Made by a program: the position numbers and the translations under genes
The notes under the pieces: generated by a model
The model's database searches: none
What the model saw: the letters and a program-made list of their open reading frames with translations, nothing else
What the model was told of the DNA's origin: nothing
In this document: piece by piece, positions 1 through 5,458 of the stretch
Layout of the letters: each line of letters starts with the position of its first letter
Position numbering within the stretch: position 1 is the stretch's first letter
Assembly: GCA_946482355.1 (NCBI GenBank)
Contig: CAMLRE010000149.1
Coordinates: 1-5,906, forward strand
Reading direction: 5' to 3'
Source: an uncultured Bdellovibrio sp.
GTDB taxonomy: Bacteria > Bdellovibrionota > Bdellovibrionia > Bdellovibrionales > Bdellovibrionaceae
Length of the DNA stretch: 5,906 bases

Positions 1-547
1 AGAAACCGCAACTAGCCCTGAACCAGTTTCAGTAGATGCTTTATCTGAGCCCGAAAAAAAACTATGGGCTAATTTAGAAGAAATTTTAAAATCTAAAAAC
101 GACAGTGATCCGCGCGTAAAAGACCTAGTCAACTTAAGTGCTAATTTTCGTAAAGCTTTATCAGATAAATACAATTCGTTAAAAATGGAAGACCGCAATG
201 GTCGTGGCTTTATAGTTTTTTTAATTTCAAAAGAATTAAAATCGGGCAGTGATCTCGACTTTTTACAGAAAGTTTATCAAGAACCGCCGTGTTTAAGTTT
301 AGAAAACTGTGCCGTGACTTCGCGTGATGATAATCCACATAATTCAGGTATTGATCAAACAACAATGAATTATCCGCAGTTAGTGGTTCTTTACCAGTTA
401 GACAAGCAGTTAGAATCTAATCCTGCTTTGTTAACTGATCCTGCAATGCGTGCCGGAGTCTTGGCGACCCTGAAACAGGCTGAAAGCTTTCCGGTTCCAT
501 CTGTTCATGATCGCGCTCAAAAAATTCGTGAAAAATATCAATTGTAG
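1..547 (+). CDS. 3' part of a gene for an unrecognised mostly helical protein (5' end outside window)
   Basis: The frame is open without a stop from base 2 to the TAG at 545-547, giving 181 residues of a protein that starts upstream of the window. The ATG at 185-187 is an internal methionine: the 61 codons before it look equally coding (a Pro/Ser/Glu-rich start, then a charged helical stretch), and no clear ribosome-binding site precedes it. The visible part begins with a low-complexity Pro-Glu-Val-Ser linker, followed by predicted amphipathic helices, a Cys pair (C97 and C103 of the fragment, in PPCLSLENC) and a helical C-terminus ending REKYQL. I do not recognise a family and see no catalytic motif. 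The Cys pair would fit an exported or periplasmic protein, but the N-terminus that would carry a signal peptide is missing. It converges on the minus-strand operon, its stop lying 11 bases from that of the 68-aa peptide. Confidence 0.8.
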   Translation, partial: ETATSPEPVSVDALSEPEKKLWANLEEILKSKNDSDPRVKDLVNLSANFRKALSDKYNSLKMEDRNGRGFIVFLISKELKSGSDLDFLQKVYQEPPCLSLENCAVTSRDDNPHNSGIDQTTMNYPQLVVLYQLDKQLESNPALLTDPAMRAGVLATLKQAESFPVPSVHDRAQKIREKYQL

Positions 548-558
548 ATTCTAAAAAG

Positions 559-765
559 TTAAAGACTTTGAAGACGAAGAAGACATTCTTCGTAAGTTTC
601 TTTTTTACCAGAAATCTTTAAACGTTTTTTGCTACAGAAGTTTTGGGCTTCGTTCACTGTTGGTTTTTTCGCTGAGTTCATTTTCGAAGCCTGTGCCTCG
701 GTAGCTGTTAACAATAAAAGTAAACAAGTGATTGCTAAAAAGAACATAGGTTTAATGTTTGTCAT
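559..765 (-). CDS. Small exported cysteine-containing peptide (68 aa), last gene of the operon
   Basis: The product has a classical signal peptide: Asn/Lys-containing N-terminus, a hydrophobic core (about residues 7-20, with a run of five Leu) and a likely cleavage after A24-Q25-A26. The mature peptide would be about 42 residues, very lysine-rich, with two cysteines (C44 and C61) that could form one disulfide after export. No family is recognised. The start at 765 has AAGAGGG (771-777) five bases upstream and overlaps the end of the MACPF-like gene by 14 bases, which suggests translational coupling. Starting instead at Met7 would lose the charged N-region and that spacing. Position at the end of the operon suggests a partner, inhibitor or accessory of the upstream proteins, but the sequence does not say which. 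Its last codons double as the stem-loop at 574-593. Confidence 0.75.
   Translation of the reverse strand: MTNIKPMFFLAITCLLLLLTATEAQASKMNSAKKPTVNEAQNFCSKKRLKISGKKETYEECLLRLQSL
574..607 (+). terminator. Candidate intrinsic terminator of the left-hand + strand gene, embedded in the convergent gene
   Basis: A perfect 8-bp inverted repeat, ACGAAGAA (574-581) and TTCTTCGT (586-593), encloses a 4-base loop (GACA). On the + strand it is followed after three bases by a T-rich tract (TTTCTTTTTT, 597-606). It lies 27 bases past the + strand stop, as expected for a terminator. The stem has only 3 G/C pairs, so it may be weak. It sits inside the last codons of the minus-strand 68-aa gene; on the minus strand the stem is followed by a less convincing tract. 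Confidence 0.45.
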
Positions 766-2062
766 TTTGTCCCTCTTGTTTTTCTTTTTCTAACTGGGCT
801 TTGATTTCAGCCACATACTTAAGAACACGAAGTTTGTGACGGTATTGTTTGGGCCACAATCTAATTTGATCAGCTAGCTCAAGATGAACTTTCAGATCTG
901 TTAAACTACAACCCTCAATACCATTTCCATTCGCACATTTTTGAATACCTACCACAAGCTCATTTCGGGCTTTATCTAAAGATCTGGTTTGAAAGCCCAC
1001 ATATTCTGCGTACTGCTCACAAGACATTTCTTTGCCGTCTTTAATTTCTTGAATATCGCAAAGGTTCTCAGTGTCGCTGACAAGGTTTTGCCCCACGTAC
1101 TGGCGCATACGGCTTAAATCTGAATCAACTTTTCTAAAAGCCCCATACAGATCATTCAGTGTAGTTTTTTGTGCCTCGCCGGCGATGGCCATGTAAGGCT
1201 GGTATTGAATTGGGTACGGTGATGTTAAGTACTCAGTAATTACAGACTGTTTTGAGTCCATTTGGTTAAGCATATCTGAAATAATCTCAACGATTTTATC
1301 AACATCTTTTGGCGTTTTAATGATTTGTGCTGTTGTCGCTAAGCCCCCAGTGCCGTAGCCAATGATACGCACTTCAAGAGAGCTAAATTTTAAAAGACTG
1401 CTAGCTACATTTAAAAAAGCAGCTTGCACTGAGCCGCCACCAGATCCAAATTTAGCCGAGGCTGTAGCACCGGCCTGAATTTTTTCATACGAGTATGAGC
1501 TTGCTTCTAAAGTGCGTAAGACAATGTTAAGCCCCTGACCAAGACGGTAGCCATTTACAAATTCAGTTCCACATGTTTGATAAAATTTTTGCGTGTTGCT
1601 TTTACTTAAACTTAGAAGATCATTTCTGATCTCTGGATTTTTTAAGTACCAACGGCCAAAATCAGCTTTAGCACGAATACCTACAGTAATTTGGTCACTG
1701 CTAAGACTTGTTTGTTTTTCGTGGTTATATTGAGCTGATCCTGAATAAGCCATGTACTGAACATCAGCTGAAATACTTTCATTTAAATACTCATCAAGTT
1801 TTTGATAGCTGCGGATCACTTCAGATGTTACTTCAAGGCGCAGTGTGCCTGCGGGGTTGTGGTCATCTGATCTTCCATCTTCTGAAACAACATCTTTAGG
1901 TGAAAAGCTATTGATGCAACTTGGGTAAAGTTGTTCAGTGGCCACTTTGATGCCGCTACCAAGGCGGGCTTCATTGTCTGGCGAATTTCTAATAATGGCG
2001 GCTTGAGAAAAACAGCCCACAAGTAAAGAACCGATATAAAGTGATAGGTTTAGTTTTTTCAT
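752..2062 (-). CDS. Exported MACPF/perforin-like putative pore-forming protein (436 aa)
   Basis: The core resembles a divergent membrane-attack-complex/perforin (MACPF) domain, a family whose members oligomerise and insert beta-hairpins into membranes. Residues 164-177 read CGTEFVNGYRLGQG, which fits the family signature (aromatic)-G-T-H-(Y/F)-x6-G-G with Cys, Glu and Gln at three positions. The signature is preceded by a helix and a 'Y/F at minus three' context, as in family members. Alternating Ser/Ala-rich stretches flank it (about 100-140 and 195-228, including FGSGGG), where the two membrane-inserting hairpin regions are expected. A later segment (about 230-285: RIIGYGTGG, then a helix, then ITEYLTSPYPIQY) matches the usual 'GG...P..I.Y.L.P' end of the domain. 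The C-terminal 130 residues are helical with Cys pairs C335/C348 and C376/C385. The N-terminus is a signal sequence; L14-V15-G16-C17 could be a lipobox, or signal peptidase I could cut near S19-Q20-A21. A strong GGAGGT ribosome-binding site is present. The family call rests on motifs read by eye. Confidence 0.6.
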   Translation of the reverse strand: MKKLNLSLYIGSLLVGCFSQAAIIRNSPDNEARLGSGIKVATEQLYPSCINSFSPKDVVSEDGRSDDHNPAGTLRLEVTSEVIRSYQKLDEYLNESISADVQYMAYSGSAQYNHEKQTSLSSDQITVGIRAKADFGRWYLKNPEIRNDLLSLSKSNTQKFYQTCGTEFVNGYRLGQGLNIVLRTLEASSYSYEKIQAGATASAKFGSGGGSVQAAFLNVASSLLKFSSLEVRIIGYGTGGLATTAQIIKTPKDVDKIVEIISDMLNQMDSKQSVITEYLTSPYPIQYQPYMAIAGEAQKTTLNDLYGAFRKVDSDLSRMRQYVGQNLVSDTENLCDIQEIKDGKEMSCEQYAEYVGFQTRSLDKARNELVVGIQKCANGNGIEGCSLTDLKVHLELADQIRLWPKQYRHKLRVLKYVAEIKAQLEKEKQEGQNDKH

Positions 2063-2063
2063 A

Positions 2064-3464
2064 TTAATTTACCTCCGAAGTTAAATATTTAAAAAATTCC
2101 ATCCAAGTTGCTAAGTCAGTGCGATCTTTTGTAAGTTTACGTTCAAAATTTACTAGTTTTTCTAACGACCCCGTCGTGTTTGAACTAAAAGCCGGCCAGA
2201 AAACCTCTTTGGGATCGTCGGCAGTTCCACAGTAGTAATTGGCAAATTTACCTTCATGAAACTCTTTGACGCGATCAATTGTTCCGTCAACTTTACGGGT
2301 TTGTTTGCCGTAATAAAGAAGAGGACCCATTTTAGAAATCTGTTTTTGAATAATCGATTTAATGTACTGAAGGGCTTTCATGCGATCAGCGTTAGGTTTT
2401 GTTTGATCTTCATAAATAGAGAACTTATTTTTTAGGTCGTCTAAATACATTTTTACTAAATCTGGATTGCAGGTATAAAACGTGTTGATTACTTCAAACT
2501 TACTAGAATTTTGCTGATAGCTATTGGCAAACCCACCATAATCAAGATTCAGCTGTCTAAAACCGCCAACACCATGGCTTGCTAAATCACGAATAAACTG
2601 ATTGGGAAACAGATAGTAGCCCGGAAGATTACGCGCTGAAATTTTATGGCGAAATTTTTTAAGTAATTCATCGTTTTCTGTAGTTCCATATTTTGGATCG
2701 TTACGGCGAATAGCGAAATCGCTATTCCACGTGTTGCGAAGAATGACTCCATCTAAAGCATCATCATAACCAACAGTCGCCACAGAGTGATTAGTCTCTT
2801 TTAAAAAACTTGCATCAGTGGCATAGGCTTCTGCTAATAATCCTGTATAAGGATCAAAATAATTAAGAAAAAGCGCATCGAAAGAAAGAGTTATAGCGGC
2901 GCCACTTTTTACAAGTGAAAAGAATTTGTCGGCACCCACGGTGTTTGAATAACCCGGTGAAAAAGTAAAAAAAGCTTCAGAAAACACACCTGGATTCGGC
3001 GGAAAAGTTCCGTCGTAAATTCCCATGTCTTCAATTTTTGGACGAAAATATTTTTCATTTCCTGCCACGGGGGCATTGTCTGCGATACCGGCTTCAGTTC
3101 CTAGTTTAGAAAAATCCACACCAGAAAGATCTTCTGGAAGTACGTAATCAGGAACAATGGTTCCGTATTGCCCGGTGATTTGGTTTGATGTGGCCGTAAG
3201 AATAAGACCAACATCATTACGGTTTGTTAGATCTTTACCGCGCCAGATCGCTGCATGAGCATGTTGCAAAGAAATTTTAAAGTTAGCTCCGCGTTCAGCT
3301 AATTTGTGTTCAAGAGAAGTCACATAGGATTCAGATTGGCATGAGCCCGTGTCTTGGTTAGAACCAAAAGTACGCGCCGGTGTTGTCGGGTAAAATTCAG
3401 CGCCTTGTGAAACTGTAACCGTTAGTAATAAAGCAGTGGTCATTAAATGATGAATCGTGCGCAT
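2064..3464 (-). CDS. Exported papain-like (C1 family) cysteine peptidase with C-terminal extension (466 aa)
   Basis: The catalytic set of papain-type peptidases is visible in order. N36-Q37-D-T-G-S-C42 corresponds to the oxyanion Gln and nucleophile Cys (papain: QGSCGSCW). N225-H226-SVATVGYD corresponds to the catalytic His region. R243-N244-TWNSDF corresponds to the Asn of the 'NSWG..WG' block. The Trp normally after Cys is Gln here, so it is a divergent member. A signal peptide spans about residues 1-21 (cleavage near S19-Q20-G21). The catalytic Cys follows only about 20 residues later, leaving no room for the usual N-terminal inhibitory propeptide. Beyond about residue 265 lies a roughly 200-residue, mainly helical extension of unknown role. 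The start at 3464 is preferred over an in-frame TTG at 3494: ATG has AAAGGA seven bases upstream and opens a proper signal peptide, and the TTG lies inside the preceding gene. Peptidase activity itself is inferred. Confidence 0.8.
   Translation of the reverse strand: MRTIHHLMTTALLLTVTVSQGAEFYPTTPARTFGSNQDTGSCQSESYVTSLEHKLAERGANFKISLQHAHAAIWRGKDLTNRNDVGLILTATSNQITGQYGTIVPDYVLPEDLSGVDFSKLGTEAGIADNAPVAGNEKYFRPKIEDMGIYDGTFPPNPGVFSEAFFTFSPGYSNTVGADKFFSLVKSGAAITLSFDALFLNYFDPYTGLLAEAYATDASFLKETNHSVATVGYDDALDGVILRNTWNSDFAIRRNDPKYGTTENDELLKKFRHKISARNLPGYYLFPNQFIRDLASHGVGGFRQLNLDYGGFANSYQQNSSKFEVINTFYTCNPDLVKMYLDDLKNKFSIYEDQTKPNADRMKALQYIKSIIQKQISKMGPLLYYGKQTRKVDGTIDRVKEFHEGKFANYYCGTADDPKEVFWPAFSSNTTGSLEKLVNFERKLTKDRTDLATWMEFFKYLTSEVN
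2071..2076 (-). promoter_or_regulatory. Strong ribosome-binding site of the MACPF-like gene, inside the preceding gene's last codons
   Basis: On the minus strand GGAGGT stands eight bases before the ATG at 2062-2060. It is written into the Ser-Glu-Val codons at the end of the cysteine-peptidase gene, whose TAA (2066-2064) is only one base from the next ATG. This is the best Shine-Dalgarno match in the window, suggesting the pore-former-like protein is translated at a relatively high rate and is coupled to the peptidase. Confidence 0.75.
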
Positions 3465-3471
3465 AATATTT

Positions 3472-3477
3472 TCCTTT
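3472..3477 (-). promoter_or_regulatory. Ribosome-binding site that fixes the cysteine-peptidase start
   Basis: On the minus strand AAAGGA lies seven bases before the ATG at 3464-3462 and overlaps the TAA of the metallopeptidase gene (3478-3476). This geometry favours the ATG over the upstream in-frame TTG (3494-3492) and implies termination-reinitiation coupling between the two peptidase genes. Confidence 0.75.
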
Positions 3478-4705
3478 ATTTTTTTGATTCGCAATTCATG
3501 TAAAAGTGAACGCCAATCGCCCCTTTACAAAGATCTTTTCTAACTAAACTTGGCATTTGAGCTAAAGTTGCGCTGAGTTTTTTACTACGATCAGAAGCTT
3601 CTTGAGCTAAATTGACTCTAAAATTTTCTTGGGCTGTAACAAGTTTTTCTTGGGTTGTATTAAAAGACTCTGTCAGCTTTTCGCAATTAGGAGCGTTTTG
3701 TACATCGCAATCATCTTCATAGAGTTTTTGCTGAGTTGTGCGAAGCTGAATGGTCTGAAGGCGAATTTCACGCATTAAAGAATTCAGAGCATCTACTTTC
3801 TGTGAAAAATACGCCGTCAGATCTTCCATAGGTTTTGTCACCTCAGGCGGGCAGACCACAGAAGATTTAATCATCTGGCTCATTGTCAGCGGATAGTTAA
3901 GATTGATATCTAATAAATTAACTTGTGGAAATCTTAAGTGAAGTGATCCAGGTTTTCCGCCAGAGATAAGTTCATTAAACTCTGTTTCAATACCATTATA
4001 AAGATGAAGTTCAAAAGTTGTCGCATCAATTTCACCGAATGCACGGCTCATTTGTCGCAGACAAGAAAGCTCTAAATACTTCGGGCTGTAGTTAAGTCTG
4101 ATATATTTGTATTGTTCATGATGTCTAAGTTCATGAGGCAGAGTGCCCGGCTCTGAAAAAATATGCAAACCGATCAACCCTAAGGAGTTAAAGTATACAC
4201 CTGAAGCGGTTGATGGTGACTTAGACGAGATAAAAGCAACTTGTAAACCTTGCTTTTGGGCTTTCTGTACATCAAGCCAAAACTGTGAAGTTAAAATAGC
4301 TAGTGAGTAGCGGTTTTTAAGAAGGATCTGATTAAGTTCGGCGATCAATTCTTCAGGTAATGGTGCTAGATAGTACATTAAGTAGCTATCGCTAACCATT
4401 TCACGTTTCCATAGACCGCGCCCTGGAGTAAACCAAGAACTCAATTTCGGAAGTAAAACTTCTGGTGTCCAGTAAGGATCGTTATCGCCACTTTCTTGGG
4501 GGGCGATACGTGTTTCTTCGTAACGCGAACGAATTTCATTAAGGCCCTCATGATTAATCACGGTATCTTCAGCCGTATATTCTGCAAACTGACTGGGTGT
4601 TTCAGTTTTGTGAACATCGGCTTTTTGAGCATCGGTCTTCGCTTGGCAAGCAACCGATTGGTAACTTAGAAGAAAAACTAATGTAAATCGAAATAAGCGA
4701 ATCAT
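3476..4705 (-). CDS. Probable lipoprotein zinc metallopeptidase with HELRH motif and four-Cys C-terminal module (409 aa)
   Basis: Residues 191-197 read HELRHHE (bases 4115-4135), an HExxH zinc-binding and catalytic motif in the context L-P-H-E-L-R-H. About 30 residues downstream, G224-E-I-D-A-T-T-F-E232 offers E225 or E232 as a third zinc ligand, as in gluzincin-type peptidases. I do not recognise the exact family. The N-terminus is a short signal sequence ending S17-V18-A19-C20, a plausible though imperfect lipobox (Ser at -3), so membrane anchoring through C20 is likely but signal peptidase I processing is possible. A Thr/Glu/Lys-rich linker (about 22-60) precedes the catalytic domain. The C-terminal part (about 295-409) is a long charged helix followed by a module with C333, C341, C393 and C405. 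That module recurs in the gene at the right edge with all four cysteines. AAGAGG stands five bases before the ATG; the gene lies 33 bases after the 239-aa gene and 11 before the cysteine peptidase. Confidence 0.75.
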   Translation of the reverse strand: MIRLFRFTLVFLLSYQSVACQAKTDAQKADVHKTETPSQFAEYTAEDTVINHEGLNEIRSRYEETRIAPQESGDNDPYWTPEVLLPKLSSWFTPGRGLWKREMVSDSYLMYYLAPLPEELIAELNQILLKNRYSLAILTSQFWLDVQKAQKQGLQVAFISSKSPSTASGVYFNSLGLIGLHIFSEPGTLPHELRHHEQYKYIRLNYSPKYLELSCLRQMSRAFGEIDATTFELHLYNGIETEFNELISGGKPGSLHLRFPQVNLLDINLNYPLTMSQMIKSSVVCPPEVTKPMEDLTAYFSQKVDALNSLMREIRLQTIQLRTTQQKLYEDDCDVQNAPNCEKLTESFNTTQEKLVTAQENFRVNLAQEASDRSKKLSATLAQMPSLVRKDLCKGAIGVHFYMNCESKK

Positions 4706-4738
4706 AAGGGCCTCTTTTTTGTTCGGCGATAAATAGAT

Positions 4739-5458
4739 TTAGTAATTTGTTAAAGTTTTGATCCAGTCAGAGTATTTCATCGTTTTTCCATAAACGTTTG
4801 ATTTATCTGTAATGGTGATGCTTTTACTTTCACTCGGAGCGCCAGGAACGATGCCGCTCATAGATGGAGGTGGACCGTAAAGCACTTCAGTAGCGCCTGT
4901 CGCAACAAAGTGGCCGTCGATATCGGCATTAATATCAAGCGGAGCGATACGACCGGAAACAGCTGTTAGGTAGTTATTATCAAGACATTTATAAAGTGAT
5001 GTGTAATAGGTCTTTTCATAGTTTTTATAAGTCATGAAAGTAAGATCGCTAGGAACTGTTGGCCATTCGCCTTTGGCTTCTAGCTCTTTTCTGACAGCGT
5101 CAGCACCGTCGATAAGATCGCTTCGGCCAAGGGTAACAATGGCACGTGTTTTTTCGACATTATCTAAAGCGTTTAAATAATCGCTCATTGATTTTTCGTC
5201 TTGTGCGGTTTCATCAGCCATAACACTTCTGATAACTGGGCGGCCCCATTCAGCAAAGATTTGGTTGATACACACAAGCACGATGTCAGAGCCATTTTCA
5301 GTCTCTGAAGGGGAATAGGCGATCACTTCATAACGTTGATTAACGATAGAGTGTAAAGCCGATGCGGCGAAGGTGCGGTGTTGATCGACATCAGCTAGTG
5401 CTGGAGCGATCTGGGTTAAGGAGCAAATGGCAGGAACTAATAATAATTTTTTGATCAT
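4739..5458 (-). CDS. Exported protein of unknown function, first gene of the five-gene run (239 aa)
   Basis: A clear signal peptide begins M-I-K-K, has a hydrophobic core and ends A20-L21-A22, so the mature protein would start at D23 (about 217 residues, soluble, two cysteines: C63 and C158). No catalytic motif or known family is recognised. A Pro/Gly-rich loop (about 195-208, GPPPSMSGIVPGAP) separates a mixed alpha/beta body from a short C-terminal segment ending KTLTNY. The start at 5458 has AAGAGG eight bases upstream and gives a proper signal peptide. An in-frame TTG at 5488 would only prepend a charged, non-signal stretch and is rejected. As the first gene after a 147-base non-coding region, it is probably the promoter-proximal gene of the operon; the following metallopeptidase begins 33 bases after its stop. 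A substrate-binding, chaperone or inhibitor role for the peptidases is possible but unsupported. Confidence 0.75.
   Translation of the reverse strand: MIKKLLLVPAICSLTQIAPALADVDQHRTFAASALHSIVNQRYEVIAYSPSETENGSDIVLVCINQIFAEWGRPVIRSVMADETAQDEKSMSDYLNALDNVEKTRAIVTLGRSDLIDGADAVRKELEAKGEWPTVPSDLTFMTYKNYEKTYYTSLYKCLDNNYLTAVSGRIAPLDINADIDGHFVATGATEVLYGPPPSMSGIVPGAPSESKSITITDKSNVYGKTMKYSDWIKTLTNY

Follow-up and report, generated by a model that had tools for sequence, protein, structure and literature searches.

A row of genes for predicted exported peptidases and a MACPF/CDC-like protein in an uncultured Bdellovibrio, with a distant copy in a tailed-phage genome

The DNA analysed here, referred to as the window, is a stretch of 5,906 nucleotides from an uncultured Bdellovibrio sp. 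(contig CAMLRE010000149.1), whose minus strand carries a row of five adjacent genes between positions 559 and 5458. In order of reading these encode an exported-looking protein (gene 1), a predicted lipoprotein metallopeptidase (gene 2), a papain-like peptidase (gene 3), a MACPF/CDC-like protein (gene 4) and a small Cys-containing protein (gene 5); coordinates are collected in Table 1. Genes 1 to 4 recur in a distant copy (L001) within a tailed-phage genome (G001). The open reading frames (ORFs) reproduce exactly the five same-strand genes and the gaps of 33, 11, 1 and -14 bases described in an initial annotation of the window. The signal sequences that this annotation assigned to all five products agree with hydrophobic N-termini, judged by eye, and the products may be exported. 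Shine-Dalgarno-like purine-rich stretches lie ahead of all five starts. The annotated frames of genes 1 to 5 are the ones that codon usage supports, the four large genes scoring +0.22 to +0.30 per codon, an in-sample figure as the score was trained on the same genes. The start of gene 3 is taken as ATG; the mechanical ORF begins earlier, with a TTG at 3494.

Membership of gene 4 in the MACPF/CDC fold superfamily is moderately supported by structure prediction. The AlphaFold2 model (predicted local distance difference test, pLDDT, 71.7; predicted template modelling score, pTM, 0.66) has a MACPF/CDC-type fold, and Foldseek, a second fold search and a viral library all support this, with matches of moderate strength and low TM-scores. 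The Pfam MACPF profile PF01823 matched none of the 12 aligned gene 4 sequences at E <= 1 and nothing in the phage record at E <= 10, and a PDB profile search with the gene 4 alignment gave no meaningful match. Putative membrane-inserting segments are located at residues ~93-122 and ~186-224, and a C-terminal helical part (~292-433) contains four invariant cysteines. Gene 4 also gave a hit to Tse6 (E 0.66-0.81), which was dismissed as chance. By eye, the MACPF-like proteins of one clade (that of L001 together with P0010 and P0011) have a signal sequence ending in Cys and look like lipoproteins; this Cys is mostly absent from the relatives of the window's gene 4.

Gene 3 has the oxyanion Gln, catalytic Cys, His and Asn in the order that points to peptidase family C1. 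These residues (Gln37, Cys42, His226 and Asn244) are invariant in all 12 aligned sequences and are kept in the phage copy. PF00112 matches eight of the 12 at E <= 0.1 (best 3.5e-6), the window's own protein not being among them, and a profile search found cathepsin K (E 0.0036) and cathepsin S (from 0.012), matches that span the half with His and Asn and reach the Cys part very weakly. The catalytic Cys lies close behind the signal sequence and, as it is residue 42, leaves no room for the usual N-terminal propeptide; a C-terminal extension of ~220 residues is present.

Gene 2 carries a zinc metallopeptidase signature, with HELRH at 191-195, a further conserved Glu225 in an EIDAT motif as possible third ligand, and a long helical C-terminus. 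In the 12 aligned sequences, the window's included, lipobox Cys20, HE[LIM]RH and Glu225 (E-[IV]-DAT motif) are invariant throughout. The putative metallopeptidase family DUF6782 (PF20573) gives weak matches around HExxH in 11 of the 12 (best E 0.0018); the window's gene 2 reaches 17.2 bits, the cut-off being 27, and unlike this family it adds a lipoprotein anchor and the long helical C-terminus. In the AlphaFold2 model of gene 2 (pLDDT 82.9, pTM 0.81) HELRH and Glu225 lie on successive helices. No peptidase appeared among the best 50 matches listed by either of two fold searches, no PDB match reached E <= 0.001, the helical C-terminus fills the lists, and a PDB sequence profile search with the gene 2 alignment returned mostly apolipoproteins. 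The peptidase fold of gene 2 is left unconfirmed, rather than excluded, by these fold searches. The initial annotation had proposed two peptidase classes beside a MACPF-like protein, with structure prediction as a check; the conserved catalytic residues bear out the former and the model of gene 4 its pore-former-type fold, and it was for gene 2 that structure prediction brought no support.

Conserved gene order, also put forward there as a check, is found in relatives. The strongest case for synteny is L001, in which counterparts of genes 1 to 4 lie in the same order on one strand at 20-34% identity, with gaps of 42, 33 and -7; G001 is an IMG/VR record of 67,562 bases. Since gene order is kept in so distant a relative, the association of peptidases with a MACPF-like protein is not an accident of this genome. 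Protein searches gave 12 best matches each, after scoring of the best 7,998 (gene 4) and 7,997 (gene 3) word-sharing candidates. Bdellovibrio bacteriovorus is the one named organism among the matches listed for genes 4, 3 and 2, and its relatives AZI86_05785 (gene 4), AZI86_05790 (gene 3) and AZI86_05795 (gene 2) share the same longest contig and have neighbouring tags, steps of five between neighbours being usual in NCBI numbering. Longest contigs of equal size, which are a proxy for a shared contig and not proof, unmatched rows being uninformative, link genes 4, 3, 2 and a gene 2 paralogue (9,219 bases), genes 4 and 3 (43,916), genes 4 and 2 (18,579) and genes 3 and 2 (4,528). On the 9,219-base contig (P0002, P0015, P0028, P0029) the relatives of gene 4 and of the paralogue share 85% and 82% identity with their counterparts in the window, whereas those of gene 2 and gene 3 share only 63% and 60%. 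The two peptidases appear to have changed together, by exchange (mosaic) or by faster paired divergence.

These features are tentatively read, at slightly less than an even chance, as an exported attack cassette, in which a pore-former gated by proteolysis, and peptidases made with it, would be used against prey or competitor cells. The row proteins would exit the cytoplasm via Sec, and the metallopeptidase lipoproteins (gene 2 and its paralogue) would be located at the outer membrane. The gene 4 pore-former would be inactive until trimmed by a row peptidase or by a peptidase of the target, after which it would bind the target membrane, oligomerise and open a pore in prey or competitor cells. 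The peptidases may also digest what passes through the pore. Genes 1 and 5 would provide accessory exported proteins, and one or other of them could be an inhibitor or immunity factor that protects the maker.

Activation of gene 4 by the row peptidases is suggested by analogy with the CDC-like (CDCL) toxins of Bacteroidota. These toxins need proteolytic activation, open the outer membrane and can be found on mobile elements; one is activated by the target cell's DpnB, a C11-type protease, and one has a co-encoded immunity protein (PMC11169675, PMC11952106). They resemble the row in the MACPF/CDC fold (the best match in the gene 4 fold search), in their Gram-negative makers and in the mobility of some members; they also depend on a surface lipoprotein-type protease (PMC11169675), gene 2 of the row being a predicted lipoprotein. 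They differ in being mostly gene pairs that rely on the target cell's C11 protease, whereas the row co-encodes two other peptidase classes. As to a long/short CDCL pair, one MACPF-like gene lies within the window, and one locus was returned from G001. This parallel, the phage-borne copy and the upstream paralogue go beyond the initial annotation.

Segments rich in small residues occupy both places where insertion would be expected, across the 12 aligned gene 4 rows; in the six of these that were counted, small residues make up 0.45-0.65 of each segment and 0.31-0.40 of the whole. Alternation peaks at residues 93 and 194. It is modest, with means of 0.89 and 1.05 in the two regions (0.81 overall), and residues 31 and 125, outside the presumed segments, show higher peaks. 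Modest alternation would fit a gene 4 product that is a non-lytic MACPF-like surface protein, the row then being a cell-envelope processing or nutrient-uptake system, and most row partners do look exported or lipid-anchored. A similar function, protein transport or nutrient uptake, has been read from the context of a Bacteroides MACPF (PMC2954219). The small-residue-rich segments at both positions count against this alternative, which is considered improbable. Bacteroides Bth-MACPF (PMC2954219) and the BSAPs (PMC12853789) share with the row a bacterial MACPF-type protein among lipoproteins or exported proteins, but the Bacteroides MACPFs are placed in PF01823, whose profile gives no match to gene 4, and the available portions of those papers describe no row of papain and metallopeptidase genes.

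Beyond its MACPF-like gene the phage row encodes, at L001 11241-12606, a protein of trypsin type (PF13365, 6.8e-12) and a predicted lipoprotein with weak similarity to matrixins (PF00413, 6.4e-4, which misses its cut-off), and thus has four peptidase types; further lipoprotein-like genes lie beyond. These are more peptidases than gating needs, and they would suit a digestive cassette, in which the peptidases would degrade protein of prey or of the environment, while the MACPF-like protein, unprocessed, would serve solely to open prey membranes or to take up products. The single carrier with a name is a Bdellovibrio, a genus that preys on bacteria. Digestive enzymes, however, need not keep a fixed order with one pore-former across 20-34% identity, and a phage would be an odd carrier of digestion genes; a digestive role is considered unlikely, though to be taken seriously. 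The attack cassette remains the preferred reading.

G001 is probably a complete circular map, because its ends overlap and its sheath gene is divided between them. A stretch of 155 bases at its start is repeated, with 99.4% identity, at its extreme end, and nowhere else in G001 at E 1e-5; the N-terminal part of the sheath (profile 9-172) is found at the end and the C-terminal part (215-470) at the start, in different reading frames or ORFs. The same two observations stand against G001 being a prophage border with host flank. By PHROGs, sheath, fibre, tape measure and tail proteins are encoded at the start, and terminase, portal, head protease, decoration, major head and baseplate proteins towards the end. 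A ParA-like gene allows that G001 is perhaps a phage-plasmid. The phage row is placed between a sigma-54-type regulator and the terminase, the regulator and a glycine-rich protein (L001 4353-5477 and 5410-6180) lying just upstream. At 0.48-0.51, the GC content of the row is lower than that of the structural genes (0.54-0.59) but resembles that of the remaining non-structural part (0.46-0.52), and thus does not mark it as recently acquired cargo. A scan of four G001 pieces revealed no tRNA. The terminase has 534 matching phage records, each below 60% identity (best listed 31%); the kin of G001 thus lie outside that phage collection.

Of the two copies with readable DNA, one thus belongs to a phage, with a helicase gene on one side and packaging genes on the other. 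This position would be in keeping with a phage-spread defence or superinfection-exclusion module, analogous to gasdermin-protease pairs, that acts on the carrier's own envelope during phage attack. The phage trypsin-like protein also matches the protease parts of two PADLOC systems (RT-Protease_XI 1.3e-5, LmuA 4.6e-5), but as a generic protease domain. At E <= 0.1 the five window proteins have no PADLOC match, and those of the paralogue (E 0.014) and the phage papain (0.067) are at chance level; moreover, all row products look exported, whereas the known gasdermin systems act from the cytoplasm. A defensive role is considered very improbable, and an attack on other cells continues to be preferred.

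The row is suggested to be rare, and perhaps mobile, by a weak negative among genomes together with the phage copy. Pattern scans of 84,980 species genomes, with gene 4 alone (six peptide patterns) and with its alignment (two), gave 43 and 75 pattern matches and no relative of gene 4 among them, a weak negative for which gene 4 was the only query. By tblastn, genes 3 and 4 had no match among 50,697 phage records and 72,556 plasmid records, and the phage MACPF had none among the phage records. Four of six viral contig scans returned a single record, G001 each time; the other two, made with alignments of gene 3 and of gene 2, came back empty despite the distant copies of both in G001, and such scans are therefore insensitive. 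No NCBIfam family exceeded its cut-off for the window proteins, and no PHROGs family reached E <= 0.001 for those scanned (best 0.0079, gene 4). The initial annotation knew of no described operon of this composition, which fits the literature: among the papers listed by open-access searches, none of the titles and abstract beginnings mentions an operon of MACPF, papain and metallopeptidase genes, phage-borne or otherwise.

Gene 1 is homologous to the L001 gene directly upstream of the metallopeptidase, with a local score of 60 that none of 1000 shuffles reached (mean 31.0, standard deviation 4.8). Against nine other L001 proteins it scored 29-41; the relationship is weak, yet above chance, and Cys63 and Cys158 are common to both proteins. 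Gene 5 scores +0.225 per codon, whereas the alternative frames give -0.20 and +0.05 on its own strand and -0.27 to -0.06 on the opposite one. It is probably a real gene because its ribosome site and codon score favour it; a false ORF, with a hairpin inside, was set aside on the same grounds. No gene 5-like ORF was seen behind the phage MACPF gene in L001, and no homologue search was made for gene 5.

The paralogue upstream of gene 1 is seen at full length in P0030, a protein of 387 aa (longest contig 7,487 bases) that has HELRH, is 53% identical to gene 2 and is marked in the protein search as one encoded by the window. It is possibly part of the same transcript, against which stand the 147 bases between its end and gene 1 and the terminator-like hairpin at its own end. 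Terminator-like sites number 13 in the window against 5.6 expected, which is above chance; promoter-like sites (10 against 12.3 expected) are no more frequent than by chance, and the transcript ends are settled by neither kind of site.

Table 1. Genes and other features of the window and of the phage-borne copy L001
Feature	Sequence	Position	Strand	Description
Gene 1	Window	5458-4739	-	239 aa, exported-looking protein of unknown function
Gene 2	Window	4705-3476	-	409 aa, predicted lipoprotein metallopeptidase
Gene 3	Window	3464-2064	-	466 aa counted from ATG, C1-type papain-like peptidase
Gene 4	Window	2062-752	-	436 aa, MACPF/CDC-like protein
Gene 5	Window	765-559	-	68 aa, small exported-looking Cys-containing protein
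Metallopeptidase paralogue	Window	5905-5606	-	ORF, C-terminal 99 residues, runs off window; possible first gene of row
Convergent gene	Window	2-547	+	From ORF list; unknown function, convergent on row
Terminator-like hairpin	Window	5653-5632	-	At end of paralogue
Terminator-like hairpin	Window	3522-3508	-	At end of gene 2
Terminator-like hairpin	Window	3137-3121	-	Within gene 3
Terminator-like hairpin	Window	1438-1418	-	Within gene 4
Terminator-like hairpin	Window	574-593	+	Within gene 5; perhaps terminator of convergent gene 2-547
Gene 1-like	L001	6387-7073
Metallopeptidase	L001	7116-8339		22% identity over aligned part
Papain	L001	8373-9902		25% identity
MACPF-like	L001	9896-11224		34% identity

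Bacterial gasdermins have protease partners, and the known gasdermin systems act inside the cell. They are like the row in that a pore-former is encoded beside a peptidase, and unlike it in being intracellular: the products of the row look exported, and the gene 4 model best matches MACPF/CDC proteins. A cleavage requirement is also described for gasdermins (PMC11952106). A broader proposal, speculative and rather unlikely as a whole, is that the row represents a new exported system, spread by phages, whose MACPF-type pore-former is under the control of peptidases of the same operon, as an extracellular counterpart of protease-gasdermin pairs. Predatory or competing bacteria would use it and pass it on as lysogenic-conversion cargo, and the joint divergence of the peptidases, beside a pore-former and flanking paralogue that remain similar, would reflect co-adapted specificity.

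If the attack cassette is real, it would add a MACPF-like family that is invisible to the current Pfam profile and is encoded with candidate activating or partner peptidases, and the switching-on of bacterial MACPF proteins would become directly testable by gene removal. Through the phage-borne copy such weapons would be tied to transfer by phages, and the mobile CDC-like toxins known from gut Bacteroidales would be a parallel.
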